Origin: Micrococcus terreus
Lineage (GTDB): Bacteria; Actinomycetota; Actinomycetes; Actinomycetales; Micrococcaceae
Assembly (NCBI RefSeq): GCF_900116905.1
Contig: NZ_FPCG01000007.1
Coordinates: 1 to 64,000, forward strand
Reading direction: 5' to 3'
DNA: 64,000 bases
Below the pieces are notes generated by a model, which saw only the letters and a list, made by a program, of their open reading frames with translations, did not search any database and was not told where the DNA came from. The position numbers and the translations under genes were made by a program. This document shows positions 4,732 through 42,225 of the stretch, piece by piece. The first letter of the stretch is position 1. Every line of letters starts with the position of its first letter.

Positions 4732-6689
4732 CGCTCCACCTCCTGCAACAGCTGGATGATCTCGGCGGTGAGCTGCTTGAGCTCGGCGTCGATTTCCTCG
4801 AGCGGACGTGGCGGCACGTACCTATAGAACAGTCGGGTGAAGGGGATCTCGTAGCCGATCTTCGTCTTGGACTCGTCGATCCAGGCGCCGGGCACGTGGG
4901 GGACGACCTCGGCCTCGAAGTACTCGTGGATGTCCCGGCCGAAGGGCACGAGTTCGGTGTCGCGCAGCGAGGTGTCCGGCTCCGGCTCGCCCTTCCCGTT
5001 CTTCACGACCTCCGCCTCGGGGTCGTGCACACCGATCGCCCCGGTCAGGGCCTTCACCAGCGGGGCGCCGGCGGTCACGCCGTGCTCCTTCAGCGCCTTC
5101 TTCAGGTCGATCACGAAGGTGGGCTGGTGGTTCCAGTCCCGGCCACGCAGGGAGGCGAGGGCGGTTTCGAGAGCCGAGCGGCCGTCGTCGGGAAGCTTGT
5201 CCACCGGCTTGGTGGCGAGCGCCGCCGCGATGGTGGCGTCCTCCACCTCGAAGCGCAGCTGCAGCGGGCGCTCCACGGTGATCTCCCGGTAGCCGAAGTC
5301 CTGCGCGGTGAGGACCTTGGAGAATTCGGCGTTGGCCTCGGACTGGGCGTCGAAGTCTCGGTAGATGTCCAGCACACGCTGGCGGTCCGCCTTGGACAGC
5401 TCCTTGTTCTTCGAGCCCACGTTGCGGCGCAGCTTGGTGAAGAACGTGCGGGCGTCGATCAGCTGCACTTTGCCGCGGCGGTCTGCCGGCTTGTTGTTGT
5501 CCAGCACCCACACGTAGGTGGCGATGCCGGTGTTGTAGAACATGTCCGTGGGCAGCGCGACGATCGCGTCCACCAGGTCCGACTCCAACAGCCAGCGGCG
5601 GATCTCGGACGGGCCCGAGCCCGCCCCGCCCGTGAACAGCGGGGAGCCGTTCAAGACGATGCCGGCCCGACCGCCACCCTCCGAGACCGGACGGAGCTTC
5701 GAGGCCACGAGCTGGAGGAACAGCATCTGGCCATCGCTGATGGCGGGGGTGCCGCCCGGGAAGCGGTTCGTGGCGCCACCGGCGGCGATCTCCTTCTCCA
5801 CCGCGGTGCGGGAGGCCTTCCAGTCGCCGCCATAGGGCGGATTGGAGAGGACGTAGTCGAAGCGTTCAGTCAGGTGGGCGTCATTCTTGAGGGTGTCCCC
5901 GCGGGCGATGCCGTCCGCGTCCTGACCCTTGCCGAGCAGCTCGGACTTGCAGATGGCGTAGGACTGGTCGTTGAGCTCCTGCCCGAACAGGCGAACCTCC
6001 GCGTTCGGGTTCATGCGGCGCAGCCGCTCGTCCAACAGGGACAGCATGCCGCCGGTGCCGGCCGTGGGGTCATAGACGGTGCGGACCGGGTAGCCGGTGA
6101 GGACGTCGTCGTCGTTGGCCGTGAGCAGGTCCACGAGGAGCTTCACCGCGTCGCGCGGGGTGAAGTGCTCACCGGCGGTCTCATTGGAGGCGGCGGCGAA
6201 GCGGCGGATCAGGTCCTCGAAGAGGGTCCCCATCTCCGCGTTGGACACGGTCTCCGGGGAGAGATCGATGGAGGCGAACTGCTGCAGGACCAGGAAGAGG
6301 CGGTCGTGCTCGTCCAGCTTGGCGACCGTCTTGTCGAATTCGTAATAGGTGAACAGGTCCGCCACGTTCTGGGAGAACCCGTCCACGTAGGCCAGCAGGT
6401 TCGTGCGGAGCAGGTCCGGCTCCTGCAGGATGCGGTCCAGGGTGAAGGGGCTGAGGTTGTAGAACGTCAGGCCCGTGCGGGACTCCACCAGGTTGTCCAG
6501 GACGAAGTCCGGATGACCCTTGGCCGCCAGCTCCGCGAAGAACTCCCGGTGCGGGTCCATGACCGCCTCCATACGGCGCAGGATCGTCATGGGCAGGACG
6601 AGGGTGCCGTATTGGTTCGGCTTGAACACGCCACGCAGCTGATCCGCGATCCCCCACACGAAGTTCGAGAGGTTCTGGGGAGAGGGCAT
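4728..6689 (-). CDS. hsdM: Type I DNA methyltransferase subunit
   Basis: HsdM (653 aa) is the N6-adenine methyltransferase subunit that protects host DNA and forms the M2S core. The SAM-binding motif I, DPTAGTGGM, lies near residues 204-213, and the catalytic motif NPPYG near 280-284. The N-terminus (NFVWGIADQLRG) is the helical domain typical of HsdM. It is longer than the classical 520-aa enzyme because of an extended C-terminal region, which is common in this subfamily. It is the first gene of the operon. A TAAGAAT -10-like box is seen about 45 bp upstream. Confidence 0.95.
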   Translation of the reverse strand: MPSPQNLSNFVWGIADQLRGVFKPNQYGTLVLPMTILRRMEAVMDPHREFFAELAAKGHPDFVLDNLVESRTGLTFYNLSPFTLDRILQEPDLLRTNLLAYVDGFSQNVADLFTYYEFDKTVAKLDEHDRLFLVLQQFASIDLSPETVSNAEMGTLFEDLIRRFAAASNETAGEHFTPRDAVKLLVDLLTANDDDVLTGYPVRTVYDPTAGTGGMLSLLDERLRRMNPNAEVRLFGQELNDQSYAICKSELLGKGQDADGIARGDTLKNDAHLTERFDYVLSNPPYGGDWKASRTAVEKEIAAGGATNRFPGGTPAISDGQMLFLQLVASKLRPVSEGGGRAGIVLNGSPLFTGGAGSGPSEIRRWLLESDLVDAIVALPTDMFYNTGIATYVWVLDNNKPADRRGKVQLIDARTFFTKLRRNVGSKNKELSKADRQRVLDIYRDFDAQSEANAEFSKVLTAQDFGYREITVERPLQLRFEVEDATIAAALATKPVDKLPDDGRSALETALASLRGRDWNHQPTFVIDLKKALKEHGVTAGAPLVKALTGAIGVHDPEAEVVKNGKGEPEPDTSLRDTELVPFGRDIHEYFEAEVVPHVPGAWIDESKTKIGYEIPFTRLFYRYVPPRPLEEIDAELKQLTAEIIQLLQEVER

Positions 6690-6734
6690 GGCGGCGGGGC
6701 CTTTCGGAGCACGGCGGGGTGGTCTGTTCCGGCC

Positions 6735-6741
6735 ATTCTTA
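6735..6741 (-). promoter_or_regulatory. Candidate -10 box for the hsd operon
   Basis: TAAGAAT on the minus strand about 45 bp upstream of the hsdM start matches the actinobacterial -10 consensus. No convincing -35 is seen at the expected spacing, so the call is tentative. Confidence 0.35.
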
Positions 6742-6943
6742 CACTGACAGGCCGTCCACCCCGGTGTCTTGGACTGAGTTGAGTCCCTCGGCGCCTCACC
6801 GCGGCGCGGAACCTCTACCTACAGTTCTTGTACGCATCGCTGACCGGCAGAGGCGATCTTCACGCGAAGAACGCATCCGTCCTGCAGAGCGCCTCCGGAC
6901 GCTGGGACATCCCTCGCCCGCCCTGTCCGTCATTCCGGTCTGC

Positions 6944-6949
6944 CACAAT
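6944..6949 (+). promoter_or_regulatory. Candidate -10 of a leaderless promoter
   Basis: CACAAT lies exactly 6 nt before the GTG at 6956. This is the spacing at which transcription would start at the initiation codon. It supports the GTG over start codons further upstream in the same frame. Confidence 0.45.
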
Positions 6950-6955
6950 GGGGCC

Positions 6956-8008
6956 GTGCCCCTGACGTCCCCGCTGCCCGTGCGCAACGGGGTCAATGCC
7001 ACCCGGCTGCGCCTGCCGGACACCGGCTGGGACACCGCACTGGACTACGTGCTGCACCGGTTCGGGCACGTGGACCCGGAGGGCATCCGCCGCCGCTTCC
7101 GCACCGGGGAGGTCCGTGCCGCTGACGGCACCGCCCTCACCGAGACCACGCCGCTGGGCGTCCACGAGTTCCTCTGGTACTACCGTGAGGTCCCGCACGA
7201 GGACCCCATCCCGGGTGAGCTGACCATCCTGCACCAGGACGAGCACCTGCTGGCCGTGGACAAGCCGCACTTCCTGCCCACCACCCCCGGCGGCCGGTTC
7301 ATCCAGCAGTCCGCCCTGGTCCGGCTGCGCAACGAGCTCGGCCTGGACCACCTGGTGACCATCCACCGCCTGGACCGGGCCACCGCCGGCGTGCTGCTCT
7401 TCTCCACCAACACCGAGACTCGCGGGGCCTACCAGGTGATGTTCGAACGCCGCCACATCCACAAGGTCTATGAGGCGGTCTGCGCGGTCCCGCAGGCCCC
7501 GTCCCCCCACGGTCAGGAGCGTCCCGACGACGCCACGCACCCGGCGCTGGCACGGTTCCCCCTGGTCTTCCGCAACAGGATGGAGAAGACCAAGGGCGTG
7601 CTGACCGCCCAGGTCATGGAGTACTCCGCGCAGGACTCCGGCCGCTCCCCCGGCGGAGCGGCCCGTTCCGGACGGAAGACGAACCGGCCGCCGGTGGGGG
7701 CGAACGCCGAGACCCGGATGGAACTGATCCGAGCGGGTGTCTCCGCGGGCACCTGGGAGGGGGCCGCCGTCGGGCATGTCAGGCTCTTCCCCCGCACCGG
7801 CAAGACCCACCAGCTGCGCGTCCACCTGGCCGCGCTGGGACTGGGGATCCTGGGCGATCCGTTCTATCCCGTCCTGCAGGATGTGGCGCCGGATGACCAC
7901 TCTCGGCCGTTGCAACTGCTGGCCCGCTCGATCGGGTTCACGGACCCGCTGAGTGGTCAGGAACGGGAGTTCACCTCTGGACTGGAGCTGCAGGAGCGGC
8001 CTCGGTGA
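6956..8008 (+). CDS. RluA-family RNA pseudouridine synthase
   Basis: This 350-aa enzyme converts uridine to pseudouridine in rRNA or tRNA. The family signature HRLDRATAG carries the catalytic Asp (near residue 140), preceded by AVDKPHFLPTTPGG and followed by KTHQLRVHLAALGLGILGD, the usual C-terminal fold of RluA/RluC/TruC proteins. An N-terminal S4-like region (LDYVLHRFGHVDPEGIRRRF) is present. The frame is open further upstream, but that part is not conserved-looking and a -10 box sits 6 nt before this GTG. It overlaps the next gene by 4 bp. Which RNA position it modifies cannot be told. Confidence 0.88.
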   Translation: MPLTSPLPVRNGVNATRLRLPDTGWDTALDYVLHRFGHVDPEGIRRRFRTGEVRAADGTALTETTPLGVHEFLWYYREVPHEDPIPGELTILHQDEHLLAVDKPHFLPTTPGGRFIQQSALVRLRNELGLDHLVTIHRLDRATAGVLLFSTNTETRGAYQVMFERRHIHKVYEAVCAVPQAPSPHGQERPDDATHPALARFPLVFRNRMEKTKGVLTAQVMEYSAQDSGRSPGGAARSGRKTNRPPVGANAETRMELIRAGVSAGTWEGAAVGHVRLFPRTGKTHQLRVHLAALGLGILGDPFYPVLQDVAPDDHSRPLQLLARSIGFTDPLSGQEREFTSGLELQERPR

Positions 8009-8613
8009 GCGGTGAGTCGCTGGACCCGGCGTGGGTCGAGTCCCTGGGCTGGTGGTTCCACGCCCTGACCGCCCTGCTGGTGGCCCTGGATGCGCCCATC
8101 CCGCCGGTGCCCAGCGAGCTGTTCGTGATCGGCTCCGGGGCGCTGGCGCTGAACGGGTCCCTCGGGCTGGTGCCGTCGGTGCTGGCGGCCTGGCTGGGCT
8201 GCTGGGCCGGGGATGTGGGTCTCTACGCCCTGTTCCGGCACCGGCTGACCGGACTGCTGGACCGCGCCTCCTGGGGCCAGCGGATCCACCGCGGGATCCT
8301 GCGCCTGCTGGACAAGGCCGGACCCGCCCCGAGCTACGCCCTGCTGTTCGTGCTGCGCTTCGTCTCCGGGGGTCGGACGGCGTCCATGGCCGCGGCCGGG
8401 ATCGCCGGGATCCCCTGGCGGCCGTTCCTGTTGCTCTCCGGCGTGGGTTCCCTGGTGTGGGCGGTGTACATGGTGGGCCTGGGATGGTTGACGGGCTCGG
8501 CGACAGGCCTGCCGTTCTGGGTCAGCGCACTGATCGGGATGGGTTTGGGTACTCTTGCAGGGTTGATGATCGCGGGGATCATCGCGGTACGACGACGCTC
8601 CCGGGAGGCCTGA
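8005..8613 (+). CDS. DedA-family membrane protein
   Basis: A 202-aa integral membrane protein of the DedA/SNARE-associated (VTT) family, implicated in lipid flipping and membrane homeostasis. The family pattern is visible: a first re-entrant hydrophobic region (APIPPVPSELFVIGSGAL), a charged loop, then FVLRFVSGGRTASMAAAGIAG, which resembles the conserved F.R..P..R....AG motif, followed by two C-terminal membrane helices. The GTG start overlaps the stop of the pseudouridine synthase gene. The next gene begins immediately after its stop, so the three genes probably form one operon. Confidence 0.8.
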   Translation: MSGESLDPAWVESLGWWFHALTALLVALDAPIPPVPSELFVIGSGALALNGSLGLVPSVLAAWLGCWAGDVGLYALFRHRLTGLLDRASWGQRIHRGILRLLDKAGPAPSYALLFVLRFVSGGRTASMAAAGIAGIPWRPFLLLSGVGSLVWAVYMVGLGWLTGSATGLPFWVSALIGMGLGTLAGLMIAGIIAVRRRSREA

Positions 8614-10410
8614 GTGACGGACGAGCAGTCCACCTCCTCTGCCGCGCTGGAACGCATGAAGGCGGCGGCCGAGGCACGGTCCGCACCGGCGAACCCGGTG
8701 GCGGAGCCCCGGACGAGCGCGCCCTCCGGCAGCTCTGCCCCCGTTGAAGCAGCCCCGACCGGTGAACCAGCCCCGCAGACCACCCGGCCCGCACCCCCGG
8801 CCTCTCAGCCCACGCGCTCGCCCAGCTCCGTCACGCGACTGCGCCACGCCCGGCTCGAGGAGCAGCAGGACACCCGCACCCAGGTGAACCGGTGGCTGGA
8901 CTCCCTGGGCGGACCGGACTGGGACGAGGTCTCGGACGCGATCTATGAGTCGCCGGCACGCACCCGCGAGGCCCTGAGACAGGCCCGCGAACGCCGAGTG
9001 GAGAACCAGCGCCGCCGGGCTGAGGAGAAGGAACGTCTGGCCGCCGAGCGTGCGCGCGAGGCCGAGGAGCGGGCCGACCGCGAAGCCCGGGAACGCGCTC
9101 AGGCCGAGGCGGATCGCCGTGAGGCTGAACGCCTGGCGGCCGAACATGCGCGTGAAGAGGAGCTGCGCCGTGAGGCCGAGGCGATCCTGGAGCAGCAGCG
9201 CGCCGAAGAGCAGGCCCTGCGTGAGGAGATGGAGCGCGAGGAGGCGGCGGCCGCCCTGGTCCGTCAGCAGGAGCGCGAGACTGCCGCCCTGCGCCAGGCC
9301 GCTCGCGAGGAGGACGGTTCCGACCACGTCCCCCCGGCCCACCGCCGCCCCATGCTGCAGCAGCCCGGTGAGGACCTGACCGACGCCGAGCTGCTGGCAC
9401 GTGCCCGCGAGTCCCTGCCCGAATGGCGCCGACGTGACCGGATCGTGGAGAAGGCCCAGGCGATCGAGGCCGCCACTCAACGGCATCAGAGTGCCCTGGC
9501 AGCCCCCGTCTCCGAGCCGATGCACGAGCCTGCGCCCCGGGCCTACATCCCCCCGTACAACCTGCCCTCCACCGATCCGGACCCGGAGCCCACCAGCGGT
9601 GACCTGCTCCGGCGGATCGCGGTGACCCTGGCCTGGGCCGGGTTCGTGGTGGCCGGCATGTGGAGCCTGGGCATGCTGGGCGAACGCCCGATGCTGCACG
9701 AGCTGGCAGACGGCCGCTACGGCTCCGACGTCTCCATGCTGTCCATGGCCAGCTGGCATCTGGCGATCTGGCCCATCCTGTGGCTGGCCCTGGGTGTCCA
9801 TGTGATCCACCAGTGGCTGCCCTCCCAGATCTCGGCGGACCGGCAGCGCACCACCGGCTGGAGGCTCACCGCCGCGATGGCCGGAGTGGGCCTCTGGCTG
9901 CTGCTGACCCGGCTGGGCCTGGCCTGGTTCGACGTCTTCGTGTGGCTGGCGATCGGGTACCTGCTGGTGGACACCGTCCATCAGCTGAACCTCTACACCG
10001 CGCGGACACGCACCGAGCGCGTCATCACCGACGGCATGATCGGGCTGTTCACCGGCTGGGCGATCGTCTTCACCGCCTCGGTGGTCTCCACCTGGCTCCA
10101 GCGCGCCGGGGTGGACATCCTCTGGATCCCCGGGTCCCTCTGGGCCGTGCTGACCCTGGTGGTGGTCATCTGGGGCACCGCCATGCTGACCATGACCGAG
10201 CGCGGCCGCATCACCATCGCCCTGGGCCTGGCCTGGGGTCTGGCCGCCATCCTGGGCACGCGCCTGATCGGCCCCATGCAGTCGGTGTGGGTGGCGATCG
10301 TGGCGGCCATGGGCGCGTTCATCGTCCTGCTGGCCACCGAGAGCCGGCGGTACCGGATCAACCACGCCGAGCACCGGGCCGCCCTGGGCCACGAGGTCGA
10401 GGACTTCTGA
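8614..10410 (+). CDS. Large coiled-coil plus multi-helix membrane protein, unknown function
   Basis: A 598-aa protein I do not recognise. Residues 1-75 are Ala/Pro/Ser-rich and probably disordered. About 95-250 is a highly charged Arg/Glu/Ala coiled coil (many AEERA, EAERL, REEL repeats). A Pro-rich linker (around 300-325) is followed by about seven hydrophobic segments between roughly 335 and 580 that look like a membrane domain. The C-terminus is short and cytosolic-looking. The GTG start abuts the dedA-like stop directly, suggesting coupled translation. The architecture suggests a membrane-anchored scaffold, but this is inference. Confidence 0.75.
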   Translation: MTDEQSTSSAALERMKAAAEARSAPANPVAEPRTSAPSGSSAPVEAAPTGEPAPQTTRPAPPASQPTRSPSSVTRLRHARLEEQQDTRTQVNRWLDSLGGPDWDEVSDAIYESPARTREALRQARERRVENQRRRAEEKERLAAERAREAEERADREARERAQAEADRREAERLAAEHAREEELRREAEAILEQQRAEEQALREEMEREEAAAALVRQQERETAALRQAAREEDGSDHVPPAHRRPMLQQPGEDLTDAELLARARESLPEWRRRDRIVEKAQAIEAATQRHQSALAAPVSEPMHEPAPRAYIPPYNLPSTDPDPEPTSGDLLRRIAVTLAWAGFVVAGMWSLGMLGERPMLHELADGRYGSDVSMLSMASWHLAIWPILWLALGVHVIHQWLPSQISADRQRTTGWRLTAAMAGVGLWLLLTRLGLAWFDVFVWLAIGYLLVDTVHQLNLYTARTRTERVITDGMIGLFTGWAIVFTASVVSTWLQRAGVDILWIPGSLWAVLTLVVVIWGTAMLTMTERGRITIALGLAWGLAAILGTRLIGPMQSVWVAIVAAMGAFIVLLATESRRYRINHAEHRAALGHEVEDF

Positions 10411-10476
10411 TCGCCTGAGGTGACCGGCCGTCGTCGGGACCCTCTGTGCACAGCCTGATCGGCCGCACTCAGCGGC

Positions 10477-10785
10477 TCAGCTGACCGGTTCCCAGCGGCC
10501 CCTGCTGCGGCGCAGGATCTCCAGCCGCCCCGTGGTGGCGACCTCCTGCACGGCCTCTCGCATCCGGTGCGCGGCGCCGATCGCGTCCCGGGCCTCGCCC
10601 TGCCAGGTGGACTCCGGCACCGTGAACCGCAGCACGATCCGCGGCACCCGGGCCACCACCTCGATGTCCTTGGCCTCCACGGTGTGCGTGGCGGCGACGG
10701 CGAGCTCGGCCTGTTCCATCACCTCGGGAGGGGTGTGGCCGGGCAGCAGGTCGCCGATCTGGAGTCGGGCGCGGAAGGAGGGCAT
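10477..10785 (-). CDS. Small conserved-type hypothetical protein
   Basis: A 102-aa soluble protein without a motif I can name (begins MPSFRARLQIGDLLPGHTPP). Mixed alpha/beta composition with an internal VEVVARVPRIVLRF-like beta pattern. A TAGACT box lies exactly 6 nt before the ATG, supporting both the start and expression. It is transcribed against the preceding membrane-protein gene and divergently from the DUF1684 gene. Confidence 0.6.
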   Translation of the reverse strand: MPSFRARLQIGDLLPGHTPPEVMEQAELAVAATHTVEAKDIEVVARVPRIVLRFTVPESTWQGEARDAIGAAHRMREAVQEVATTGRLEILRRSRGRWEPVS

Positions 10786-10791
10786 GGGTCC

Positions 10792-10797
10792 AGTCTA
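10792..10797 (-). promoter_or_regulatory. -10 box of a leaderless promoter
   Basis: TAGACT on the minus strand, 6 nt upstream of the ATG at 10785. Confidence 0.55.
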
Positions 10798-10819
10798 GGA
10801 ATCGGGGCAGACTGGGGGC

Positions 10820-11683
10820 ATGCCTGAGACCGCACCGCGCACCGGACCGTACACCGCCGAGGAGACCGCCGCCTGGGAGGACTTCCGGCGGCAGCGGTGG
10901 GAGGGTCTGGCCGTGCGCCACGGGTGGCTGTCCCTGACCGGGTTCCAGTGGCTGGCCGAGCAGCCTGCTGCCCTGACGGTGGACGGTGAGGACCTGCCGG
11001 GCCGCTGGTGGACCCAGGACGGTCAGGCGGTGCTGGAGGCCGCTGCCGCTGACGGCTGGGTGCTGCGCGAGAGCGGTGAGCCCGTGGACGGCCAGGTGCG
11101 GGTGGGTGCCCAGGAGAACGGCTCGGTGATGTGGGTGGAGCGGGGCGCCCTGCTGGTAGAGGCCGGTCTGCGGGATGGCCGGTGGATGCTTCGCGTGCGC
11201 GACGGCGGCGCCGACCTCCAGCGGTTCGCTCCCCTTCCGGTGTGGCCGGCCGAGGGTCCGTGGCGGCTGCCAGCACGGTGGGAGCCGTGGGAGCGGCAGC
11301 AGACCCGACGGATCGGGACCATCCGCCCGGACACCGGCGGCTGGGCGACCCTGGACGGGGAGCTGGTGCTTCAGGTGGACGGTGTGGAGCACCGACTGGC
11401 CGGCAGTGCTGGCGGCGTGGAGGCGGACGGGACGTATGACCGGGTCACCGTGACCTTCCACGACCGCACGAACGGGGTGAGCTCCGCGGCATGGCGGTTC
11501 CTGACCGTGGAGCTGGACGAGCGCGCGCGGCCGGGCGGTCCGGCGGTGAGTGCCGTGGCGGACTTCAACCGGAGCCTGAACTACCCCATGGCGTTCAGCC
11601 CGCACGCCACCTGCCCAGCGCCCGTGCCGGAGAACCGGCTGCCCTTCGAGGTGTCAGCCGGTGAGAAGGCCGTCCGCCGCTGA
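10820..11683 (+). CDS. DUF1684 family protein
   Basis: A 287-aa protein matching the DUF1684 family: an N-terminal (W..FR..R...L....GWLSLTGFQWL) region and the C-terminal family signature DFNRSLNYPMAFSPHATC followed by PENRLPFEV. The family is widespread in actinobacteria and bacteroidetes; its biochemical role is not established. There is no signal peptide. A strong hairpin lies directly downstream (11694-11740), suggesting the transcript ends there. Confidence 0.85.
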   Translation: MPETAPRTGPYTAEETAAWEDFRRQRWEGLAVRHGWLSLTGFQWLAEQPAALTVDGEDLPGRWWTQDGQAVLEAAAADGWVLRESGEPVDGQVRVGAQENGSVMWVERGALLVEAGLRDGRWMLRVRDGGADLQRFAPLPVWPAEGPWRLPARWEPWERQQTRRIGTIRPDTGGWATLDGELVLQVDGVEHRLAGSAGGVEADGTYDRVTVTFHDRTNGVSSAAWRFLTVELDERARPGGPAVSAVADFNRSLNYPMAFSPHATCPAPVPENRLPFEVSAGEKAVRR

Positions 11684-11693
11684 TCCGTCAGAC

Positions 11694-11740
11694 CCTCTGC
11701 GACTCATCAGGGCGGATGCCGACCTGATGAGTCGCAGAGG
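11694..11740. terminator. 18-bp perfect palindrome downstream of the DUF1684 gene
   Basis: CCTCTGCGACTCATCAGG (11694-11711) is repeated inverted at 11723-11740 with an 11-nt loop. It follows the stop codon of the DUF1684 gene by 11 nt. The perfect, long stem makes an intrinsic terminator likely, although a dispersed palindromic repeat is possible. Confidence 0.6.
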
Positions 11741-11812
11741 CTGAGACGGACGGACCGGACGGTGCTGCCTGCGCTCGGAATAGCGCACGGGGCCTGCGGG
11801 GTTGTGCCGGGC

Positions 11813-12964
11813 ATGACCAAGCTCTTCGATCCCGTGTCCCTCGGCGCCCTGACCCTGCGCAACCGTCTGATCCTGCCGCCCATGTGCCAGTACACCGTGG
11901 CCGCCAAGGACGGCGTGCCGGTACCGTGGCATCTGGCCCACCTCGGTGCGCGTGCCGCCGGCGGGTTCGGGATGGTGGTGGCCGAGGCGACCTCGGTGAC
12001 CCCGGAGGGCCGGATCTCCGACCAGGACACCGGCCTGTGGAACGAGGCGCAGGCGGACGCCTGGAAGCCCGTGACCGAGTTCATCCGCTGGCAGGGTGCC
12101 GTGGCCGCCGTGCAGATCGCCCACGCCGGCGCCAAGGCCTCCACTCCCGCAGATCACCCCGGCAATTCCCGCCAGCCCCTGCCCGTGGGTGAGGGAGGCT
12201 GGGAGACCGTGTCGCCGTCGGGAATCCACCCGGTCTCCGGGCTGGGACCCACGCGCGCGCTGACCGATGACGGCGTGGAGAAGCTCATCGGCGCCTGGGG
12301 CGAGGCCGCACGCCGGGCGGTGGAGGCCGGGTTTCAGGTGGTGCAGATCCACGCCGCGCACGGCTACCTGATCCACCAGTTCCTCTCCCCCGTGACCAAC
12401 CGGCGCACCGACCGGTGGGGTGGCTCCTGGGAGAATCGGACCCGGTTCCTGAAGCGGATCGTGGACGCCGTGGTGGACGCCGTCCCGGACGAGGTGCCCG
12501 TGGGCGTCCGGTTCTCCGGCTCGGACTGGCTGCAGGACAGCTGGGGCATCGAGGACACCGTGGCCCTGGTGCGCGAACTGGTGCCGGCCGGGGTGCAGTG
12601 GGTGGACCTGTCCTCCGGCGGGATCGGGGACACCTATCAGGGTCCGAAGGGGCCGGGCTACCAGGTGCCGCTGGCCGAGCAGGTCAAGCGCGAGACCGCC
12701 GATCTGCGCACTGTGGCCGGACAGCCCCTGCTGATCTCCGCCGTGGGATCCATCACCGATCCGCAGATGGCCGCCGACGTGGTGGAGGAGGGCCGCGCGG
12801 ACGCCGTGGGGATCGGACGGGCGGCCCTGGTGCGCCCGAACTGGCCCGTGGAGGCCGCTCAGGCACTGGAGGACGAGCGCTACCGCGAGCAGATGGCCCC
12901 GGAGTACCACCGCGGTGTGTGGGGCCGGCTGGACCGCCCTGCGGAGGCCCTGGCCTCCCGCTGA
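11813..12964 (+). CDS. Old yellow enzyme-type NADH:flavin oxidoreductase
   Basis: A 383-aa FMN-dependent ene-reductase of the YqjM/XenA class. It starts with the typical TKLFDPVSLGALTLRNRL, then PMCQYTV with the Cys that tunes FMN in class III enzymes. Further family elements are QIAHAGAKAS, the barrel motif VVQIHAAHGYLIHQFLSP followed by NRRTDRWGG, and the C-terminal phosphate-binding GIGRAALVRPNWP. The ATG at 11813 is preferred over one 51 nt upstream because the family consensus begins here. Likely substrates are alpha,beta-unsaturated carbonyls, and the physiological role is unknown. It appears monocistronic. Confidence 0.9.
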   Translation: MTKLFDPVSLGALTLRNRLILPPMCQYTVAAKDGVPVPWHLAHLGARAAGGFGMVVAEATSVTPEGRISDQDTGLWNEAQADAWKPVTEFIRWQGAVAAVQIAHAGAKASTPADHPGNSRQPLPVGEGGWETVSPSGIHPVSGLGPTRALTDDGVEKLIGAWGEAARRAVEAGFQVVQIHAAHGYLIHQFLSPVTNRRTDRWGGSWENRTRFLKRIVDAVVDAVPDEVPVGVRFSGSDWLQDSWGIEDTVALVRELVPAGVQWVDLSSGGIGDTYQGPKGPGYQVPLAEQVKRETADLRTVAGQPLLISAVGSITDPQMAADVVEEGRADAVGIGRAALVRPNWPVEAAQALEDERYREQMAPEYHRGVWGRLDRPAEALASR

Positions 12965-13040
12965 CCTGCGGGGCACCCCTGGTGCACCGTCATGCTCAGG
13001 TGGGGGCCGTCGTCGGGAACTGCGCATGTCCTGCCCGGAT

Positions 13041-13046
13041 TAGGCT
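13041..13046 (+). promoter_or_regulatory. -10 box of a leaderless promoter
   Basis: TAGGCT, 6 nt upstream of the GTG at 13053. Confidence 0.55.
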
Positions 13047-13052
13047 GGATCC

Positions 13053-13829
13053 GTGCTCCCCTTCCTGCTGATCCAGACCCGCTCCGACGACTCCGCCGCG
13101 GCCGATGAGCTGCGTTCCACCACCGAGCTGGGCGGGTTCGCGGAGGGGCAGCTGGCGGCGCTGCGGCTGGACCAGGAAATGGCCCCGCATGTGGGTGATC
13201 CCGGCACGGACCAGCGGCCCGGGTACGACTGGTCCGCCCTGCTGGCCGAGCATTCCGGGGTGATCCTGTGCGGCAGCCCCTACAACTCCTCGGACCCGGA
13301 CGAGCTGAAGTCCGACCTGCAGCTGGCCGTGGAGGCGGAGCTGCGGCGGATGCTGGACGTGGTGGTGGAGCAGGACGTGCCGTTCATGGGGGCCTGCTAC
13401 GGCGTGGGGACGCTGGGGCTGCATCAGGGCGCCACCGTGGACGGCACCTACGGGGAACCGGCGGGCGTGGTGTCCGTGAGCGTGACCGAGGCCGGGTCTG
13501 CAGACCCGCTGCTGGAGGGCTTGGACCCCGTGTTCGATGCCTACGTGGGCCACAAGGAGGCGGTGAGTCGGCTGCCCGAGCACGCCGTGGTGCTGGTGCG
13601 CGGAGAGAGCTGCCCGGTGCAGATGTTCCGGATCGGGCAGAACATGTACGCCACCCAGTTCCACCCCGAACTGGACCAGGAGGGGCTGCTGCACCGGCTG
13701 GAGGTCTACGCGGACCGCGGGTACTTCGACCCCGCCGAGGCCGATCAGCTGTTCGCCTCCATCCGCGCCTCCGTGGTCACCCAGCCCCAGCGCGTGCTGT
13801 CCAACTTCGTGCGCCGCTACGCGCAGTAA
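13053..13829 (+). CDS. Class I glutamine amidotransferase-like protein
   Basis: A 258-aa stand-alone GATase1 domain. The nucleophile elbow GACYGVG holds the Cys, and QFHPELD near residue 210 supplies the His-Glu pair. The oxyanion region ILCGSPYNSSD fits GMP-synthase-like amidotransferases. No synthetase domain is fused and no partner gene adjoins, as in other stand-alone GMP-synthase-like proteins whose substrate is unclear. It could hydrolyse gamma-glutamyl compounds. GTG start supported by the -10 box 6 nt upstream. Confidence 0.85.
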   Translation: MLPFLLIQTRSDDSAAADELRSTTELGGFAEGQLAALRLDQEMAPHVGDPGTDQRPGYDWSALLAEHSGVILCGSPYNSSDPDELKSDLQLAVEAELRRMLDVVVEQDVPFMGACYGVGTLGLHQGATVDGTYGEPAGVVSVSVTEAGSADPLLEGLDPVFDAYVGHKEAVSRLPEHAVVLVRGESCPVQMFRIGQNMYATQFHPELDQEGLLHRLEVYADRGYFDPAEADQLFASIRASVVTQPQRVLSNFVRRYAQ

Positions 13830-13894
13830 GGGTCTGCCCCGGCCAGTTCTGCGTCCCCACGGTCCGGCGGCGTGACCGTGTCCGTGGACTCGGG

Positions 13895-13900
13895 TAGAAC
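13895..13900 (+). promoter_or_regulatory. -10 box of a leaderless promoter
   Basis: TAGAAC, 7 nt upstream of the ATG at 13908; it decides this start over an in-frame GTG at 13872. Confidence 0.45.
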
Positions 13901-13907
13901 AGAGGGC

Positions 13908-14447
13908 ATGAGCGTGCGCACCCCTGACCCGAATCCCGGGTGGCTGTCGGAAGAGGATCTCTATGAGGCCCGACGCCGCCTGCCCATGGTCTACGTGGAG
14001 GCGCTGCCCGTGCGGCTGGACGCCCTCGGGTACGTCTCGGAGATCGGCCTGCTGTACGTGGCGGACACGGACGGCCACTTCTGCCGCACCTTCGTCTCCG
14101 GTCGCGTGATGTACCGCGAGACCATCCGCGCCGCCCTGATGCGCCACCTGGAGAAGGACCTCGGCCCCTTCGCCCTGCCCCAGCTGCCGCCCTCGATCAC
14201 CCCCTTCACTGTGGCCGAGTACTTCCCGGCACCGTCCGAGACCGGGCTGACCGATGACCGTCAGCACGCCGTCTCCCTGGCCTACCTGGTCCCGGTGGCC
14301 GGTGAGTGCAGCCCCCGCCAGGACGCCCTCGAGCTGACCTGGCTGACCCCGGAGGAGGCTCTCAGCCCAGAGATCCAGTCCGAGTTCATCGGCGGCCGCG
14401 GGAACCTGGTGCGCCAGGCCCTGGCCCACGTGGGCTGGGGGCGCTGA
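13908..14447 (+). CDS. DUF4916 / Nudix-like protein
   Basis: A 179-aa protein of the actinobacterial DUF4916 group, a Nudix-fold family. Diagnostic stretches are PGWLSEEDLYEARRRLPMVY near the N-terminus, RHLEKDLGPFALPQLPPS, PFTVAEYFP, and VPVAGECSPRQDALELTWLT. A canonical Nudix box (GX5EX7REUXEEXGU) is not visible, so hydrolase activity is uncertain. It is followed after 3 bp by the next gene, so the two are almost certainly cotranscribed. Confidence 0.8.
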   Translation: MSVRTPDPNPGWLSEEDLYEARRRLPMVYVEALPVRLDALGYVSEIGLLYVADTDGHFCRTFVSGRVMYRETIRAALMRHLEKDLGPFALPQLPPSITPFTVAEYFPAPSETGLTDDRQHAVSLAYLVPVAGECSPRQDALELTWLTPEEALSPEIQSEFIGGRGNLVRQALAHVGWGR

Positions 14448-14450
14448 GAC

Positions 14451-15377
14451 ATGGCAGAGTCACCTTCCCGTCAGTCCGCTTCGCGCCGTCCCGACGGCGG
14501 CGGAGACTACCTGAGGTCAGTCCGGGCCGCGCAGGTCCAGGCAGGCGATCGCTTCCTCACCCGGCAGGGTGATCCCTCGGCCCCGGTGGAGTCCGTGCGG
14601 ACCACCCGGGACGACTTCGGCACCCCCGCCCTGGTGGTGGCCACGCTCTCGGACGGACGCGAGGTCCGGATCGCCTATGGCTCCACCATCCGCGTGCGCA
14701 CCGCCCGGCCGGCCGCCGCGCTGGATGCCGCCACCGACCTGGCCGAGGTGGAGGAGGGTTCGCCGGAGGCCGTGATCGTGCAGATCGCCCAGCGGCATCC
14801 GGATGAGCAGCGGGTGCTGGGACTGGCCGCCAAGCTCTCCCGCGGGATCAACATGCGCTCGGGGTCCCAGCTGGAGGACATCGACACCCTGGCCAAGTAC
14901 CTGTTCACCGACCTGGACGACTCCGACGGTGCTCTGCAGGCCACCGAGCTGCTCACGGACCTGCCGTTCGACGGTGCCATGGGCCGCTGGAAGTCGATCG
15001 AGTCCGCCCTGGCTCTGGCCGCGAACATCCACCACCACCGCGGCGAGGACGAGATGGCACGTGCGTTCGGCTCCCGCCTGGCCGAACCGGATGAGGCGGA
15101 GACGGACCACCTCAAGGCCAAGCTCACCGCGGAGTTCCGACAGCGCCAGCTCAACGAGCCGAACCTGTACGACCGGGAGATCGCCCGCGCCCACGCCATG
15201 GGCGATCTGGAGACCGAGCGCAGCTGGCGCGACCAACGCCTGGCCACCCTGATGTACCTGCGGGCCCGCGGCGGCTCCGAGACGCTGAGTGACGAGGAAC
15301 TGGACCGCCGGGTGAACCGCGAGGTCGCTGCGGTGCGTGAGCTGGCCCAGCGCATCGCCGCCCAGAACCAGGGCTGA
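14451..15377 (+). CDS. Uncharacterised actinobacterial protein linked to the DUF4916 gene
   Basis: A 308-aa soluble protein with no recognised catalytic motif. Residues 1-85 look like a small beta-rich domain (GDRFLTRQGDPSAPVESVRT, then SDGREVRIAYGSTIRVR). The rest is helical and rich in acidic and basic residues, resembling TPR-like helical repeats. It starts 3 bp after the upstream Nudix-like gene. A palindromic repeat lies immediately downstream at 15394-15451. A function cannot be assigned. Confidence 0.7.
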   Translation: MAESPSRQSASRRPDGGGDYLRSVRAAQVQAGDRFLTRQGDPSAPVESVRTTRDDFGTPALVVATLSDGREVRIAYGSTIRVRTARPAAALDAATDLAEVEEGSPEAVIVQIAQRHPDEQRVLGLAAKLSRGINMRSGSQLEDIDTLAKYLFTDLDDSDGALQATELLTDLPFDGAMGRWKSIESALALAANIHHHRGEDEMARAFGSRLAEPDEAETDHLKAKLTAEFRQRQLNEPNLYDREIARAHAMGDLETERSWRDQRLATLMYLRARGGSETLSDEELDRRVNREVAAVRELAQRIAAQNQG

Positions 15378-37006: not shown

Positions 37007-38230
37007 TCACATCCGACGGGAGGAGTGCCCGTTCGAGGGGATCGGGACCCCCGCACGCACCCACCACCAGTCCTTCTCTCGACCGGAGGTGAAGGTCCCT
37101 CCGAAGGCCCTCACGCGGTCCCTCATCCCGATCAGCCCATGACCGGAGGACATCCAGGCACCTCGTCCGCGCGGTGTCATGCCCAGACTGTTGCCCACGG
37201 CCAACCGCACCTCCTGGTCATCGGCGTCGAGCTCGATCACCGCTTCGCTGCCACCTCCGGCATGCTTGGCCACATTGGTCACCGCCTCCTGCATGACCCG
37301 GTACAGGGCGGTCTGGACACTCTGGGAGATGCCTTCGGACAGGCCCTCCGTCCTGACGGCCGTGGAGATCCCCAACGATTCCAGGCCCCGCCCGAACTTC
37401 ACCGCTCCATGTTCGAGGTCCAGAGCCGAGGCCCCGTCCTGCGCGTCGGTCTCGGAGGCGTTGGCGGGATCGGCCACCAGGCCCTCGGCCTGCAGCAGCG
37501 TCAGCATCCGGCGCAGGTCGCCCAGCGCCTCCTTGGCAGAATCGCCGGCCACCTGCACCGCCATCCGAGCCGCCTCGTCCGTCCCCACGAACTGTGCCGT
37601 CCTGGTCTGCATGGCGATGATGGTCAGGTTGTGCGCCACGATGTCATGCAGGTCCCGGGCCAGCAGTCTCCGCTCCTCCTGGGCCGCCTCAGCGGCACGG
37701 CGCGTGGCCTCGGCGACGCGGCGCAGGTCCCGCTCACGGCGAGCCAGGCTCTGCTGGATGAAATGTCCGATGGTCCAGCCCCCGGCCAGCAGAGGCACCA
37801 CCACCCACAGGCTGCTGGAGTCCTCGGGCGTGGTGATCGGGATGGACGCCGCCCAGGAGATCGAGACGGCCAGGGCGAACAGGCTGAACGGGAGATTCGC
37901 CGACGCCGCCACCAGCACCAGGATCACGGGCAGCAGCAGTGACGGTGAGACGTGCAGCCCGAAGACGTGGCTGGCGATCAGCCCCGGGATCAAGGCGGTG
38001 AAGGCCACGGTGCTGCGGATCCACAGCAGGAAGAAGGGGATGCCCGTCAGCAGGGTCAACAGCACGTTGGGGGCACGGTCACCCTGAGTCCAATCGCCCA
38101 GGACCATGTCCGAGACCATGGACGCGCCCATGAACACGGTGATCAGGATGAGCACGACCCGGTTCAGGGGCCGCGCACGCCAGAAGTCGCCTGACCTCTC
38201 CAGGAGATCAGGCGACGCCGGTGCCGTCAT
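37007..38230 (-). CDS. Sensor histidine kinase (NarL/LiaS-type)
   Basis: A 407-aa membrane kinase. About five hydrophobic segments occupy residues 25-165 with only short loops, so the input is probably membrane or small-molecule signals. A coiled linker (RRERDLRRVAEATRRAAEAA) leads to the HisKA_3 motif ARDLHDIVAHNL with the phospho-acceptor His near 194. The ATPase N box (MQEAVTNVAKHA) and GLIGMRDRVRAFGG follow. It lies 18 bp after the small secreted-peptide gene on the same strand, and the cognate response regulator is divergent at 38559. No clear RBS; coupled translation from the peptide gene is likely. Confidence 0.9.
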   Translation of the reverse strand: MTAPASPDLLERSGDFWRARPLNRVVLILITVFMGASMVSDMVLGDWTQGDRAPNVLLTLLTGIPFFLLWIRSTVAFTALIPGLIASHVFGLHVSPSLLLPVILVLVAASANLPFSLFALAVSISWAASIPITTPEDSSSLWVVVPLLAGGWTIGHFIQQSLARRERDLRRVAEATRRAAEAAQEERRLLARDLHDIVAHNLTIIAMQTRTAQFVGTDEAARMAVQVAGDSAKEALGDLRRMLTLLQAEGLVADPANASETDAQDGASALDLEHGAVKFGRGLESLGISTAVRTEGLSEGISQSVQTALYRVMQEAVTNVAKHAGGGSEAVIELDADDQEVRLAVGNSLGMTPRGRGAWMSSGHGLIGMRDRVRAFGGTFTSGREKDWWWVRAGVPIPSNGHSSRRM

Positions 38231-38248: not shown

Positions 38249-38461
38249 TCAGCCGCAGAAGATGCCGAAGACCTTGCACAGCCACTTGCCTCCAGCGGAG
38301 GTCACGCCAGTGGGGCTGGCGGTCTCCGGAAGAGTGACCGACACGGAGGGGCCAGGGGCCACCGGGGCAGGCGAACCCGCGGGCGTGGCCGCAGCCGGGG
38401 AGGCGATCAGGGCGACAGAGGCGGCCACAGCGGCCAGGGAGGTGTAGACAGTCCGTTCCAT
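38249..38461 (-). CDS. Small secreted Cys-containing peptide precursor
   Basis: A 70-aa precursor with a clear signal peptide: basic METRV-like start (MERTVYTS), hydrophobic core AAVAASVALIA and an ASPAAA signal peptidase site near residue 26. A Pro/Ser/Thr linker follows, ending TSAGG. The last 12 residues, KWLCKVFGIFCG, are amphipathic with two Cys seven apart and follow a Gly-Gly. This looks like a secreted signalling or antimicrobial peptide. It lies directly upstream of a histidine kinase gene. AATACT sits 6 nt before this ATG, supporting it over the ATG at 38479. Function is inference. Confidence 0.65.
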   Translation of the reverse strand: MERTVYTSLAAVAASVALIASPAAATPAGSPAPVAPGPSVSVTLPETASPTGVTSAGGKWLCKVFGIFCG

Positions 38462-38467
38462 GACACC

Positions 38468-38473
38468 AGTATT
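38468..38473 (-). promoter_or_regulatory. -10 box of the peptide-kinase operon
   Basis: AATACT on the minus strand, 6 nt before the peptide ATG at 38461. Upstream, GTCTGGGTCA (around 38513-38522) and the related TGACACCCAGTCAGAC (38461-38495 region) form a spaced inverted pair that could bind the response regulator. Confidence 0.4.
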
Positions 38474-38546
38474 CCGCATGACACCCAGTCAGACCAGAGG
38501 TGCAGGTCACCGTCTGGGTCACTCTCCGTGCGGCACTGCGGCCCGG

Positions 38547-38552
38547 TACGCT
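38547..38552 (+). promoter_or_regulatory. -10 box of the response regulator gene
   Basis: TACGCT, 6 nt upstream of the ATG at 38559; leaderless arrangement. The same TACGCTGAC string precedes the gene at 52828. Confidence 0.55.
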
Positions 38553-38558
38553 GACGCC

Positions 38559-39281
38559 ATGGTGCAGACTCCTCCCGCGATGACTCCGGCTCCCGGGCAC
38601 AGCCGCCCCTTGACGGTGCTGGTGGTGGACGATCAACCCCTGATGAGCGGGGCTCTGAAGACGCTGATCGGTTCGGCACCGCACATGGAATGCGTGGGGG
38701 TGGCCGCCAACGGCGAGGAGGCGGTCGAAGCCTGCATCGCGGTGCGGCCGGACGTGGTCCTGATGGACATGCAGATGCCGGTCATGGGCGGCGTGGAGGC
38801 CACCGCCCGAATCACCGAGGCCTGCCCGGACACCCGGGTCCTGGCCATCACCACCTTCACGTCCGAGCAGTACCTGGTCCCGGCCCTGCGTGCCGGTGCC
38901 GCCGGCTACCTGCTCAAGGATGCCGAGCCCACGGTCATCCTCGGGGCGATCTGGGGTGTCCACCGCGGTGAGTCCGTGCTGGCCCCGGCGGTCACCGCCA
39001 AGCTGCTGGCCTCCATCGAGCATGACCGTCCCGTGGTGGGACGGGCCCAGCTCAAGCCCGGGGATCCGGACGGTTCCGATCTGACCCCGCGGGAACGGGA
39101 GATCCTGCAGCTGCTGGCCCGGGGCCGGTCCAACCCGGAGATCGCCCAGTCGCTCTCCCTCTCCGAGTCCACGGTCAAGGCCAACCTCACACGGATCATG
39201 GACAAGCTCGAGGTGCGCGACCGCGTCCAGGTGATCATCCGCGCCGCCCAGCTGGGGCTGGTGACCCTCTCGCTCGACTGA
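38559..39281 (+). CDS. NarL/LuxR-family response regulator
   Basis: A 240-aa two-component regulator. Receiver: LTVLVVDDQPLMSGALKTLI, phospho-acceptor Asp near residue 70 in DVVLMDMQMPVMGG, and the switch Thr/Lys region ITTFTSEQY and GYLLKDAEP. The C-terminal LuxR-type HTH reads LTPREREILQLLARGRSNPE then LSESTVKANLTRIMDKL. It is divergent from the peptide-kinase pair and most likely phosphorylated by that kinase. The shared 97-bp intergenic region is the probable target. Confidence 0.92.
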   Translation: MVQTPPAMTPAPGHSRPLTVLVVDDQPLMSGALKTLIGSAPHMECVGVAANGEEAVEACIAVRPDVVLMDMQMPVMGGVEATARITEACPDTRVLAITTFTSEQYLVPALRAGAAGYLLKDAEPTVILGAIWGVHRGESVLAPAVTAKLLASIEHDRPVVGRAQLKPGDPDGSDLTPREREILQLLARGRSNPEIAQSLSLSESTVKANLTRIMDKLEVRDRVQVIIRAAQLGLVTLSLD

Positions 39282-39291
39282 GCTCCGCGGA

Positions 39292-40602
39292 TCAGGCCCG
39301 GACCACCGGTACCTCGGCGAACCGGGTGGTGTACTGCGGGGAGGCGAACTCCCGCCGCATGCTCCATTGGCCCTGTTCCACCAGCCCGCCCTGGCCCAGA
39401 CCGATCGCCCCCGCGCCGAAGCGGCCTCGGACCGCCCCGAGCACGTCCTCCACATGCCGATCCGGTTCTGCCGACTCGAACACCTCCAGCATGGGATTCT
39501 GCTGGGCGGCGGACTCCAGGCCGGAGAGCATCACCCCGGCACGGTTGTAGGGGATGCCCTCACTCATCACCGAACGCATGGCGGCGGCCGCGGCACGGGT
39601 GATGGCGACCGGATCCGCCGTGGCCCGGTCCAGGGCGACCGTCCGGGCCACGGATCCGTCCTCGCCGGTGAACCGGGAGGTCCCCGCCGTCACGGTCAGC
39701 ACGCGTGCCCGCTGGCCCTGAGCGGCCATGCGGGCCGCAGCGCGCTGGGCGTAGACGTTCATCACCTCGGCCATCTCGGCCTGGGTGGTGACCGGGCGGG
39801 AGAAGGACCGGGAGAAGATGACCTGGGCCGGACCGGCGCTCTCATCCACGTCCGGCACGCAGGGGGTGCCCCTCAGCTCCAGGACCGTGCGCTCGAGCAC
39901 CACGGAGAATCGAGACCGGATCCACCCCGGATCGGCATCGCGCAGGTCAGCGATCGAGTGGATCCCGAGCTGCTCCAGCCGGGCCGAGGTCTTGCGTCCC
40001 ACACCCCACACCTCCCCCGCTGGAAGACGGCGCAGCAGCGCCTCCACCGACCCGCGGGGCACACTGTCCCAGGCCATCACCCCACCCAGCCGGCCGTCGT
40101 CGGGATTGTGCTTGGCCACATGGTTGGCGAACTTGGCCAGCGTCTTGGTGGGGGCGATGCCCACACACACCGGCAGTCCCACATGCCGGGCCACGGCCTC
40201 CCGCAGCTGCCGTCCGGTGGCCTGCAGCCGCTCAGCATCGCCCTGCAGTCCCAGGAACGACTCGTCGATCGAGTACACCTGCTGCCAGGTGCCGAACCGG
40301 CCCAGCAGCTCCATCACCCGGGCGGACATGTCCCCGTAGAGCTCGTAGTTGGACGAACGGGCCACCAGGCCCCAGCGTTCGGCTTGCCGGGCGATCTGGA
40401 ACCAGGGAACGCCGGTCTTCAGTCCCAGGGCCTTGGCCTCCGGGGAGCGGGCGACCACGCAGCCGTCGTTGTTGGAGAGCACCACCACGGGACGGCCTTC
40501 GAGGGAGGGGTCGAAGGCCCGCTCACAGGAGACGTAGAAGTTGTTCACGTCCACCAGGGCGATCCGGTCCAGCGTGGCAGGACGGGACCCGACGCCGGGC
40601 AT
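39292..40602 (-). CDS. umuC: Y-family DNA polymerase (UmuC-like, Pol V catalytic subunit)
   Basis: A 436-aa translesion polymerase. [20 protein letters not shown] opens the catalytic palm with the first Asp; [11 protein letters not shown] has the Asp-Glu pair; the HhH region follows ([20 protein letters not shown]), and a little-finger domain to the end. Similarity is to UmuC rather than DinB, including the [19 protein letters not shown] stretch. ATG at 40602 lies 5 bp after the umuD stop and is preferred over an upstream ATG at 40644 that would overlap it. No SOS (LexA) box is visible upstream of the operon. Confidence 0.92.
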
Positions 40603-40607
40603 CGCGC

Positions 40608-41009
40608 TCACAGCCGGTGCAGGCAGCAGGTGGCCACGCCCCACACCTGCAGCCGATCAGGATCCTCCAGGACCAGCGGCGCAGCGCCGTCCTCCGTGGC
40701 CAGGGCGACGGCGCGCTCGCCCCCGCGCACCTCCAGCAGGAGCCGACGCACCAGCAGCTCCCCGTCCACCACGGCCACCACCACGGAGCCGTCCTGGGGC
40801 ACGGCGGCCCGGTCCACGATCAGCTCGTCGCCGTCGCTGATCCCCGCCCCGGACATGGCCTGTCCGGCCACGCGCAGGATGAAGGTGGAGGTGCGGTCCC
40901 GGATCAGCTCTCGGTTCAGATCGATCCCGCCGTCCAGGTAGTCCCGGGCCGGGGAGGGGAAGCCGTGGGCGCGAGGAGACTGTCCTGCTCCGGCGGGCTG
41001 GACGGTCAT
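40608..41009 (-). CDS. umuD: UmuD-like protein with degenerate protease active site
   Basis: A 133-aa S24/LexA-fold protein. [20 protein letters not shown] and [13 protein letters not shown] closely match E. coli UmuD. However, the catalytic Ser of the GDSM motif is Ala here (GQAMSGAG, residue 51), and the catalytic Lys (K97 of E. coli) is Arg (LLVRRL, residue 88). The cleavage site position reads His-Gly (15-16). Thus RecA-stimulated self-cleavage appears impossible. The N-terminal arm is about ten residues shorter than in E. coli. Located between the SNase-like gene and umuC in one operon. Confidence 0.88.
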
Positions 41010-41016
41010 GCTCGCC

Positions 41017-42225
41017 TCACTCGTCCTCGTCCTCGTCTTCATCCGGGGACGGCGACGGGGAGGGCGAGCTCGACTCGGTGGGGCTCGGCGAGGGCGACGC
41101 ACTGGACTCTGTGGCGCTCGGCGAGGGCGAAGGGCTCTCGGACGGAGACTCGCTGGGCGAGGCGGAGGCACTGGGTGAGGGGCTGGGCGAGGCGGAGGCG
41201 CTGGCCTGGTCTCGGCGGCGGGCCTCCTCCTGGCGGCGCTGCTCCTCAGCGGCCCGCTGCCGAGCGGCCTCCTGCTGGCGAGCGATCTCCTGCTGACGCG
41301 CGATCTCCTGTTGGCGGGCGATCTCGCGCTGCCGTGCGATCTCGGCCTGACGAGCCTCTTCGGCTCGGCGGGCCTCCTCCTCGCGCTGACGCTGCTCGGC
41401 AGCCAGCAGAGACTCCTGGGTGTTCTCCAGGGAGACCATGCGGGCTTGGGCCTGGGAGAGTGTCGTACCCAGGCGCTCCTGCAGTCCCTCCTTGTCTGCG
41501 GCCCAGGCCAGCGAGCTGAGGGTGGAGCCCTCGTCCGGCACGGCGGCGATCATCTTCTGTGCTGCGGTGCCCCGCTCGAGCAGTGCCGCCAGCTCCGCGA
41601 TCTCCTCACTGGCGGCAGCTGATGTGCCCGGCTGGACGCTCTCCAGTTCCTCCAGCTCCTGCACCGTGGGCAGCACCTGCCCGGGCAGGGTGCACTCGTA
41701 CCCCGCCGAGTACAGACCCTTCTTGGCGGACCGGGCCTCGGCCTGGGCAGCGCGCACGGACTCCCCCAGCTCGGCGAGCGGCTGCTCCCGGACGGGGACG
41801 GCCAGTCCTTGCTCGACCTGCTGGACATTGACGATCTGCCCGGCATGGTGGACCTGCGCCAGCAGTGTCCCGTGGGGTCCGGTGCGCTGGTCCGGGAACT
41901 CCAGGCGGACGGAGTCGCCGGGTTCGAGCACCGCGCGCAGCTGGTCGACGGACTCCTGAGCCAGGCACTGCTCCGGCCCCGGCTCCTCGCCCTCCCCGGC
42001 GAGCACGGGCGCCATGATCCCGGCCAGACGCACCGTCTCCTCATTCCCGTTGAAGTTGACCACCACCGTCTGGCCGTCCTGCACGGAGATGACCTGACCG
42101 GCCGACTCAACCGTCCGGATGTCCTTGAGCGCGCTGAGCACGGCAAGGGTCAGCAGCAGCGCAGCGAGCGCCAGGAAGGCGATGGTTCCGATGAGCGGGA
42201 ACCGGCGGCTGGTGGACTCGGACAT
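41017..42225 (-). CDS. Membrane-anchored SNase-like protein with coiled coil and Ser/Pro tail
   Basis: A 402-aa protein starting MSESTSRRFP with one membrane helix (about 11-34). A thermonuclease/SNase-like beta-barrel domain (about 42-180) follows: VISVQDGQTVVVNFNGNEET then VRLAGI, ESVDQLRAVLEPGDSVRLEF, AKKGLYSAGYECTLPGQV. The Arg/Glu pair of active staphylococcal nuclease is not clearly conserved. Residues ~265-335 form a charged coiled coil with IARQQE repeats. The tail is Ser/Pro/Ala-rich and ends DEDEDEDE. It lies 7 bp upstream of umuD, so it probably leads the umuDC operon. ATG at 42225 has an AGGA site. Confidence 0.75.
   Translation of the reverse strand: MSESTSRRFPLIGTIAFLALAALLLTLAVLSALKDIRTVESAGQVISVQDGQTVVVNFNGNEETVRLAGIMAPVLAGEGEEPGPEQCLAQESVDQLRAVLEPGDSVRLEFPDQRTGPHGTLLAQVHHAGQIVNVQQVEQGLAVPVREQPLAELGESVRAAQAEARSAKKGLYSAGYECTLPGQVLPTVQELEELESVQPGTSAAASEEIAELAALLERGTAAQKMIAAVPDEGSTLSSLAWAADKEGLQERLGTTLSQAQARMVSLENTQESLLAAEQRQREEEARRAEEARQAEIARQREIARQQEIARQQEIARQQEAARQRAAEEQRRQEEARRRDQASASASPSPSPSASASPSESPSESPSPSPSATESSASPSPSPTESSSPSPSPSPDEDEDEDE
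41262..41345 (-). repeat. 18-nt tandem coding repeat
   Basis: About four consecutive near-identical 18-nt units encode IARQ(Q/R)E in the SNase-like protein. The units differ at few positions, which suggests recent slippage expansion of the coiled coil. Confidence 0.6.

Follow-up and report, generated by a model that had tools for sequence, protein, structure and literature searches.

A conserved secreted-type peptide with a C-terminal cysteine pair, encoded between a DesK-type kinase and a divergent NarL-type regulator, points to a putative signalling module in Micrococcaceae

A 70-aa secreted-type ORF in the window (by which we mean the whole 64-kb stretch of DNA analysed here) raises the question of whether members of this family produce a peptide that is read by the histidine kinase (HK) encoded next to it. 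The original prediction, which proposed such peptide sensing, described the ORF as followed on its own strand, after a gap of 18 bp, by a kinase gene, with a divergent LuxR/NarL-type response regulator (RR) gene 97 bp away, and our annotation agrees with this layout (Table 1). Our results support the proposed reading, in which the sensing of the peptide by the kinase is putative.

Table 1. Coordinates of the features discussed; positions outside the window refer to the sequence named in the second column.
Feature	Sequence	Position	Strand	Basis or content
70-aa secreted-type peptide precursor gene	Window	38249..38461	-	ATG at 38461, stop ends at 38249; conservation and dN/dS
Signal-peptide-like segment, residues 1-25	Window	38387..38461	-	Sequence and alignment, crude script only
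Conserved C-terminal core, residues 50-70 (PTGVTSAGGKWLCKVFGIFCG)	Window	38252..38314	-	Alignment, 44 sequences
DesK-type histidine kinase, 407 aa, six predicted membrane helices	Window	37007..38230	-	Pfam, AlphaFold2 (AF2), Foldseek
Divergent intergenic region between peptide and regulator, 97 bp	Window	38462..38558	.	Window sequence
NarL/LuxR-type response regulator, 240 aa, divergent	Window	38559..39281	+	Pfam Response_reg 86.1 bits, GerE 68.2 bits
Second own-genome module (L357), peptide	G000:C9:68000-84000	7361-7612	-	
Second own-genome module (L357), HK	G000:C9:68000-84000	6014-7318	-	
Second own-genome module (L357), RR	G000:C9:68000-84000	7691-8434	+	
M. luteus-type locus (L364)	G147:C1:2330000-2349000	8498-14467		57-aa leaderless-like ORF, two bPH_2, short second kinase, RR, Cys-pair peptide, kinase
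Tandem small ORFs (L366)	G210:C214	7171-7965		Three small ORFs, two (58-59 aa) like the M. luteus leaderless-type ORF

By itself, the peptide ORF would not stand out, since a crude search for secreted-type ORFs that carry a Cys pair at the C terminus returned two in the 64 kb and zero to three in each of ten Markov-2 random sequences. About two such ORFs per 64 kb are expected by chance, as one would anticipate if this were a fortuitous frame in a GC-rich intergenic region. That explanation, to which we give practically no credence, is refuted by the conservation of the ORF at one place in five genera and by a dN/dS of 0.12-0.23, and these two observations are what make the ORF more than a chance frame. 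The 70-aa ORF is a real gene. An alternative in-frame ATG at 38479 would extend the product to 76 aa; the alignment of the relatives begins at the 38461 start.

We found purifying selection on the peptide codons, as the original prediction had anticipated: the pooled dN/dS of 17 pairs, with some loci used twice, was 0.13 for the signal part, 0.23 for the spacer and 0.12 for the C-terminal core, which is under purifying selection. The signal-peptide-like segment would probably be cleaved after AAA. Four positions (M1, G52, C62 and C69) do not vary across the 44 aligned precursors, and G66 is conserved in at least 90% of them; the core typically follows the pattern [WFLY]-x-C-x3-G-x2-C, and the window peptide ends in ...SAGGKWLCKVFGIFCG. 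The original prediction had suggested that the last 12 residues could be the signal. This came close, the conserved part spanning about 20 C-terminal residues with two invariant Cys. Neither the window peptide nor the 44 family members met the cutoff of any Pfam model, and the same was true of nine peptides compared with NCBIfam. The AlphaFold2 model of the precursor (mean pLDDT 58) has a helix at residues 51-65 that ends at Gly66, and its last 20 residues reach a pLDDT of 69-81; given the low overall confidence of the model, the helix is only suggestive.

The two partner genes are of recognisable types. The kinase matches HisKA_3 (50.5 bits) and HATPase_c (26.7 bits), and its AF2 model (mean pLDDT 86, pTM 0.60) consists of six membrane helices joined by short loops and followed by the kinase part, with a sensor that lacks a large outer domain. 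DesK gave the best structural matches of the kinase part in Foldseek. When inspected by eye, the intergenic alignments revealed no operator motif conserved between genera.

The locus occurs in five genera of the same family, being present in at least 51 of the 395 genomes searched. The profile search of these 395 genomes returned matches in 195 at E<=0.05, from which 50 loci were fetched; 47 were accepted, one (L093) was set aside as divergent and two (L094 and L095) were dropped as spurious. Three further members (G187, G161 and G210) were reached via the regulator, and the total includes the window. Within its genus (38 genomes), the divergent candidate L093, from G179, has a relative in one other genome. 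The order RR<- peptide-> HK-> is present in all 48 tabulated loci (the window and L046-L092), with identities to the window proteins of 42-78% for the RR and 31-58% for the HK. We tested six genes flanking the module in the window (MFS, UmuC, UmuD, nuclease-like, GcvT and DsbA-like) in the relatives. The six same-genus loci have most of them, the Micrococcus-type genus has two, and none lies within about 4 kb of the locus in the other three genera. Because the tested flanking genes change between genera, the three genes are a unit that is kept together.

On the regulator side of the window, at 39292-41171, lie a UmuC-like (IMS) gene and an S24-peptidase gene. A UmuC homologue adjoins the regulator in five of the six same-genus loci and is absent in L049; we found no link between these UmuC-like and S24-peptidase genes and the signalling module.

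The original prediction staked itself on the peptide being retained in relatives that keep its partners, and it passed this test for close orthologues of the regulator. Starting from the regulator in 11 chosen genomes, we found the peptide ORF beside all six other RRs of at least 67% identity; three of these six peptides had escaped the peptide profile. The best regulators of G006 and G094 reach 51-52% identity, and neither genome yielded a window-type peptide; in G006 the 51% regulator is accompanied by a different peptide (...VVCHWWSFFC). Outside the family, the peptide-profile search of 396 order-level and 296 class-level genomes produced no clear member, the weak matches being judged from the table by their long frames and low scores. 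A scan of contigs with a profile of the regulator alignment gave, among the matches listed, one useful locus, L144 (Arthrobacter sp. C2); candidates turned up in six of its other 79 loci (crude scan), and none survived inspection by eye, all being judged antisense or out of frame.

This locus is one of a wider class of divergent HK/RR modules. Five genomes contain 38 HisKA_3 loci, 30 of which could be classified with our profiles. A secreted-type ORF with a Cys pair at its C terminus lies within each of the seven divergent HK/RR pairs, as against 2 of 23 co-oriented rows, both of which represent one M. luteus locus. The eight unclassified loci had given no peptide candidate in an earlier scan, and a candidate at L294 was dismissed on inspection as antisense or out of frame. 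A second module lies in the window's own genome, on contig C9, with a peptide ending in ...LLCKAFPRACPKKR, and the genome of M. luteus (G147, which we take to be Micrococcus luteus NCTC 2665) carries two. The ClpX-like ORF of G147 is found at the position that PMC8467076 gives for the clpX mutations. Both the sequence and the length of the Cys loop vary widely between modules, from C-x4-C to C-x7-C.

Searching 248 genomes of the order with the regulator gave 30 loci. We scanned 29 of them, 26 from other families, and two of these 26, which represent two other families, keep the arrangement and a Cys-pair peptide: L331 (...RWACKRLGLFC) and L332 (...LNCFFFKRC). More distantly related divergent HK/RR pairs with no peptide detected between them were found at L327, L329 and L330, from family f19, and at the in-family locus L328; these four pairs may respond to another signal, or their peptide may be invisible to the scan. 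Script candidates at L344, L346 and L353 were likewise rejected by eye, being antisense or out of frame.

Some of the paralogous modules are linked to bacteriocin genes. In G187, such a module adjoins an ABC ATPase gene and a circular-bacteriocin precursor gene (PF09221, 26.8 bits, cutoff 23.6), the product of which falls below the cutoff of the NCBIfam model (25.2 against 30.7). A PF09221 search of 197 family genomes gave a match in seven, six of them over the cutoff. Near three of the seven loci (G187, G210 and G033) there is a divergent RR/HK pair, and each pair encloses an ORF ending in a Cys pair; the 39-aa ORF of G033, which has no clear charged N-terminus, was found by eye after being missed by the script. 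In G210, about 4 kb separate the bacteriocin gene from the peptide module, and a co-oriented HK/RR pair without a peptide is nearer. No HK or RR match was found near four of the seven loci. The PF09221 loci that have no HK/RR match of this type are L378, L379, L381 and L383, from other genera of the family, L383 being the one below the cutoff.

Type-B modules adjoin bPH_2 proteins in three genomes (M. luteus, G210 and G179). Beside those of M. luteus and G210 are Trp-containing, cationic ORFs of 57-59 aa that look like leaderless bacteriocins and resemble aureocin A53; the small ORFs of G210 adjoin two bPH_2 proteins and the peptide-HK-RR module. None of three leaderless-like ORFs scanned with Pfam was recognised. 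We saw no bacteriocin gene beside the window's own module. The linkage observed for the paralogous modules fits the role of a pheromone or inducer. Downstream of the kinase of the second own-genome module are membrane-protein-like ORFs and an ORF of 80 aa, hydrophobic and cationic (in frame 5538-5879). The latter matches no family at the cutoff and has no relative in 12 other genomes, so we do not claim a bacteriocin there.

If the peptide is read by the kinase, the core and the sensor domain might be expected to vary together. In a partial Mantel analysis (n=47) of the peptide core against the kinase sensor or catalytic domain, the core-sensor partial correlation across genera was weak (r 0.17-0.18, p 0.001) and the core-catalytic one larger (0.33-0.49). 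Permutation within genera gave no core-sensor signal (p 0.54-0.60), and the partial values per genus were 0.59, 0.57, -0.15 and -0.06. Divergence within genera was 1.4-2.2 times as high in the sensor domain as in the catalytic domain.

Considering the known peptide-signalling systems, Agr combines a peptide bearing a ring-forming Cys near its C terminus with a six-helix kinase, the kinase being of the AgrC type and the regulator of the LytTR type. The module shares with it the Cys near the peptide C terminus and the six-helix kinase, and differs in having a HisKA_3 kinase and a GerE regulator. The AgrB protease (PF04647) was found in none of the seven genomes searched; the control search gave a match, below the cutoff, in 1 of 14. 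Three-component regulation of bacteriocins in lactic acid bacteria likewise relies on an inducing peptide, an HK and an RR, with a double-glycine leader and HPK10/LytTR proteins. It is matched here by the small peptide gene, the HK and the RR; proximity to bacteriocin genes was seen for some paralogous modules and not for the window's own. The signal-peptide-like N-terminus, the DesK-type HisKA_3 kinase and the NarL-type GerE regulator of the module have no place in it.

In ComQXPA, the regulator is a LuxR-type RR. Passages of PMC4008528 describe its kinase as containing PF07730 and PF02518 with a multi-TM sensor, and its precursor as variable, 52-73 aa long and with a Trp near the C terminus. 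Our module is similar in its HisKA_3 (PF07730) kinase with a multi-TM sensor and its LuxR/NarL-type RR. On the other hand, the ComX family (PF05952) did not match the window peptide and was not among the 12 families matching any of the 44 members to E=1, and no ComQ isoprenyl transferase was seen among the six window ORFs scanned. Moreover, the four ComQXPA genes lie on one strand, whereas the RR of the module is divergent in 48 of 48 loci, and the module peptide has a signal-peptide-like N-terminus and an invariant Cys pair. By analogy, the module resembles ComXPA or the bacteriocin inducers; since it lacks defining features of ComQXPA, Agr and the lactic acid bacteria systems, we file it under none of them.

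The leaderless bacteriocins of Actinomycetota, as presented in PMC11580447, occur with PH-domain proteins, and these clusters of core peptide and PH-domain proteins are like those beside our type-B modules. The main text of that article contains neither 'histidine kinase' nor 'two-component'; its passages considered here mention a response regulator and hypothetical short ORFs, and the peptide-HK-RR module is not described in those passages.

On balance, we regard a peptide-signalling module as the most likely identity of the three genes, a view that we hold with some reserve. The precursor would leave the cell through Sec, with cleavage by signal peptidase, and its last 20 or so residues would fold into a short helix, with a disulfide between Cys62 and Cys69 closing the loop. 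We propose that the DesK/ComP-type kinase recognises this hydrophobic loop with its six-helix membrane domain and would then phosphorylate the divergent NarL-type regulator. The paralogous modules that carry different loops near circular-bacteriocin or leaderless-bacteriocin-like genes probably induce those genes.

Two other explanations deserve to be weighed. The small secreted protein could be an accessory subunit of the kinase that reports membrane, envelope or redox state in cis rather than a diffusible signal. We consider this unlikely, although several points favour it: in 48 of 48 loci the kinase gene follows the peptide gene immediately in the same orientation, the kinase part resembles DesK, a sensor of membrane state, the Cys pair could report the redox state, and no signal of sensor-core coevolution was seen within genera. 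The wide variation of the loop, as would suit pheromone specificity, and the bacteriocin genes linked to some modules argue instead for a signal. It is less probable still that the peptide is itself an antimicrobial, with the kinase-regulator pair sensing it, or the damage it causes, for immunity. A small, hydrophobic peptide capable of a disulfide would suit this role, some paralogous modules do sit inside bacteriocin clusters, and one Glutamicibacter-type peptide resembles lactococcin 972, although below the cutoff (18.8 bits, cutoff 32.1) and possibly because of its signal peptide. However, those clusters contain a separate bacteriocin or bacteriocin-like gene, which makes the peptide an extra, regulator-linked gene, and none of the tested flanking genes of the window accompanies the three genes in every genus.

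We found no description of this peptide-HK-RR system among the papers listed by searches of the open-access literature, and it looks like an undescribed bacterial signalling system, with putative sensing of the peptide by the kinase. More tentatively, and at somewhat less than even chances in our judgement, the modules may represent an unrecognised class of actinobacterial pheromones: Sec-exported Cys-loop peptides and DesK/ComP-type six-helix kinases in portable modules of three genes (one to three modules in each genome looked at), every module having a loop of its own and some inducing circular and leaderless bacteriocins, with two in Micrococcus luteus, where density-dependent competence has no known signalling peptide. 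To our knowledge, peptide quorum sensing via membrane kinases is known mainly from Bacillota. We saw no dedicated export or maturation gene beside the module. If our reading is true, this conserved minimal version made of precursor, kinase and regulator would be a pheromone language of the actinobacteria's own, in Micrococcaceae, and would provide a handle on unexplored bacteriocin clusters. According to a 2026 article (PMC12849477), competence in M. luteus varies with the density of inoculation, and neither a signalling peptide nor a two-component system is currently supported there by evidence. With its two modules, M. luteus would offer a direct test of the signalling reading.
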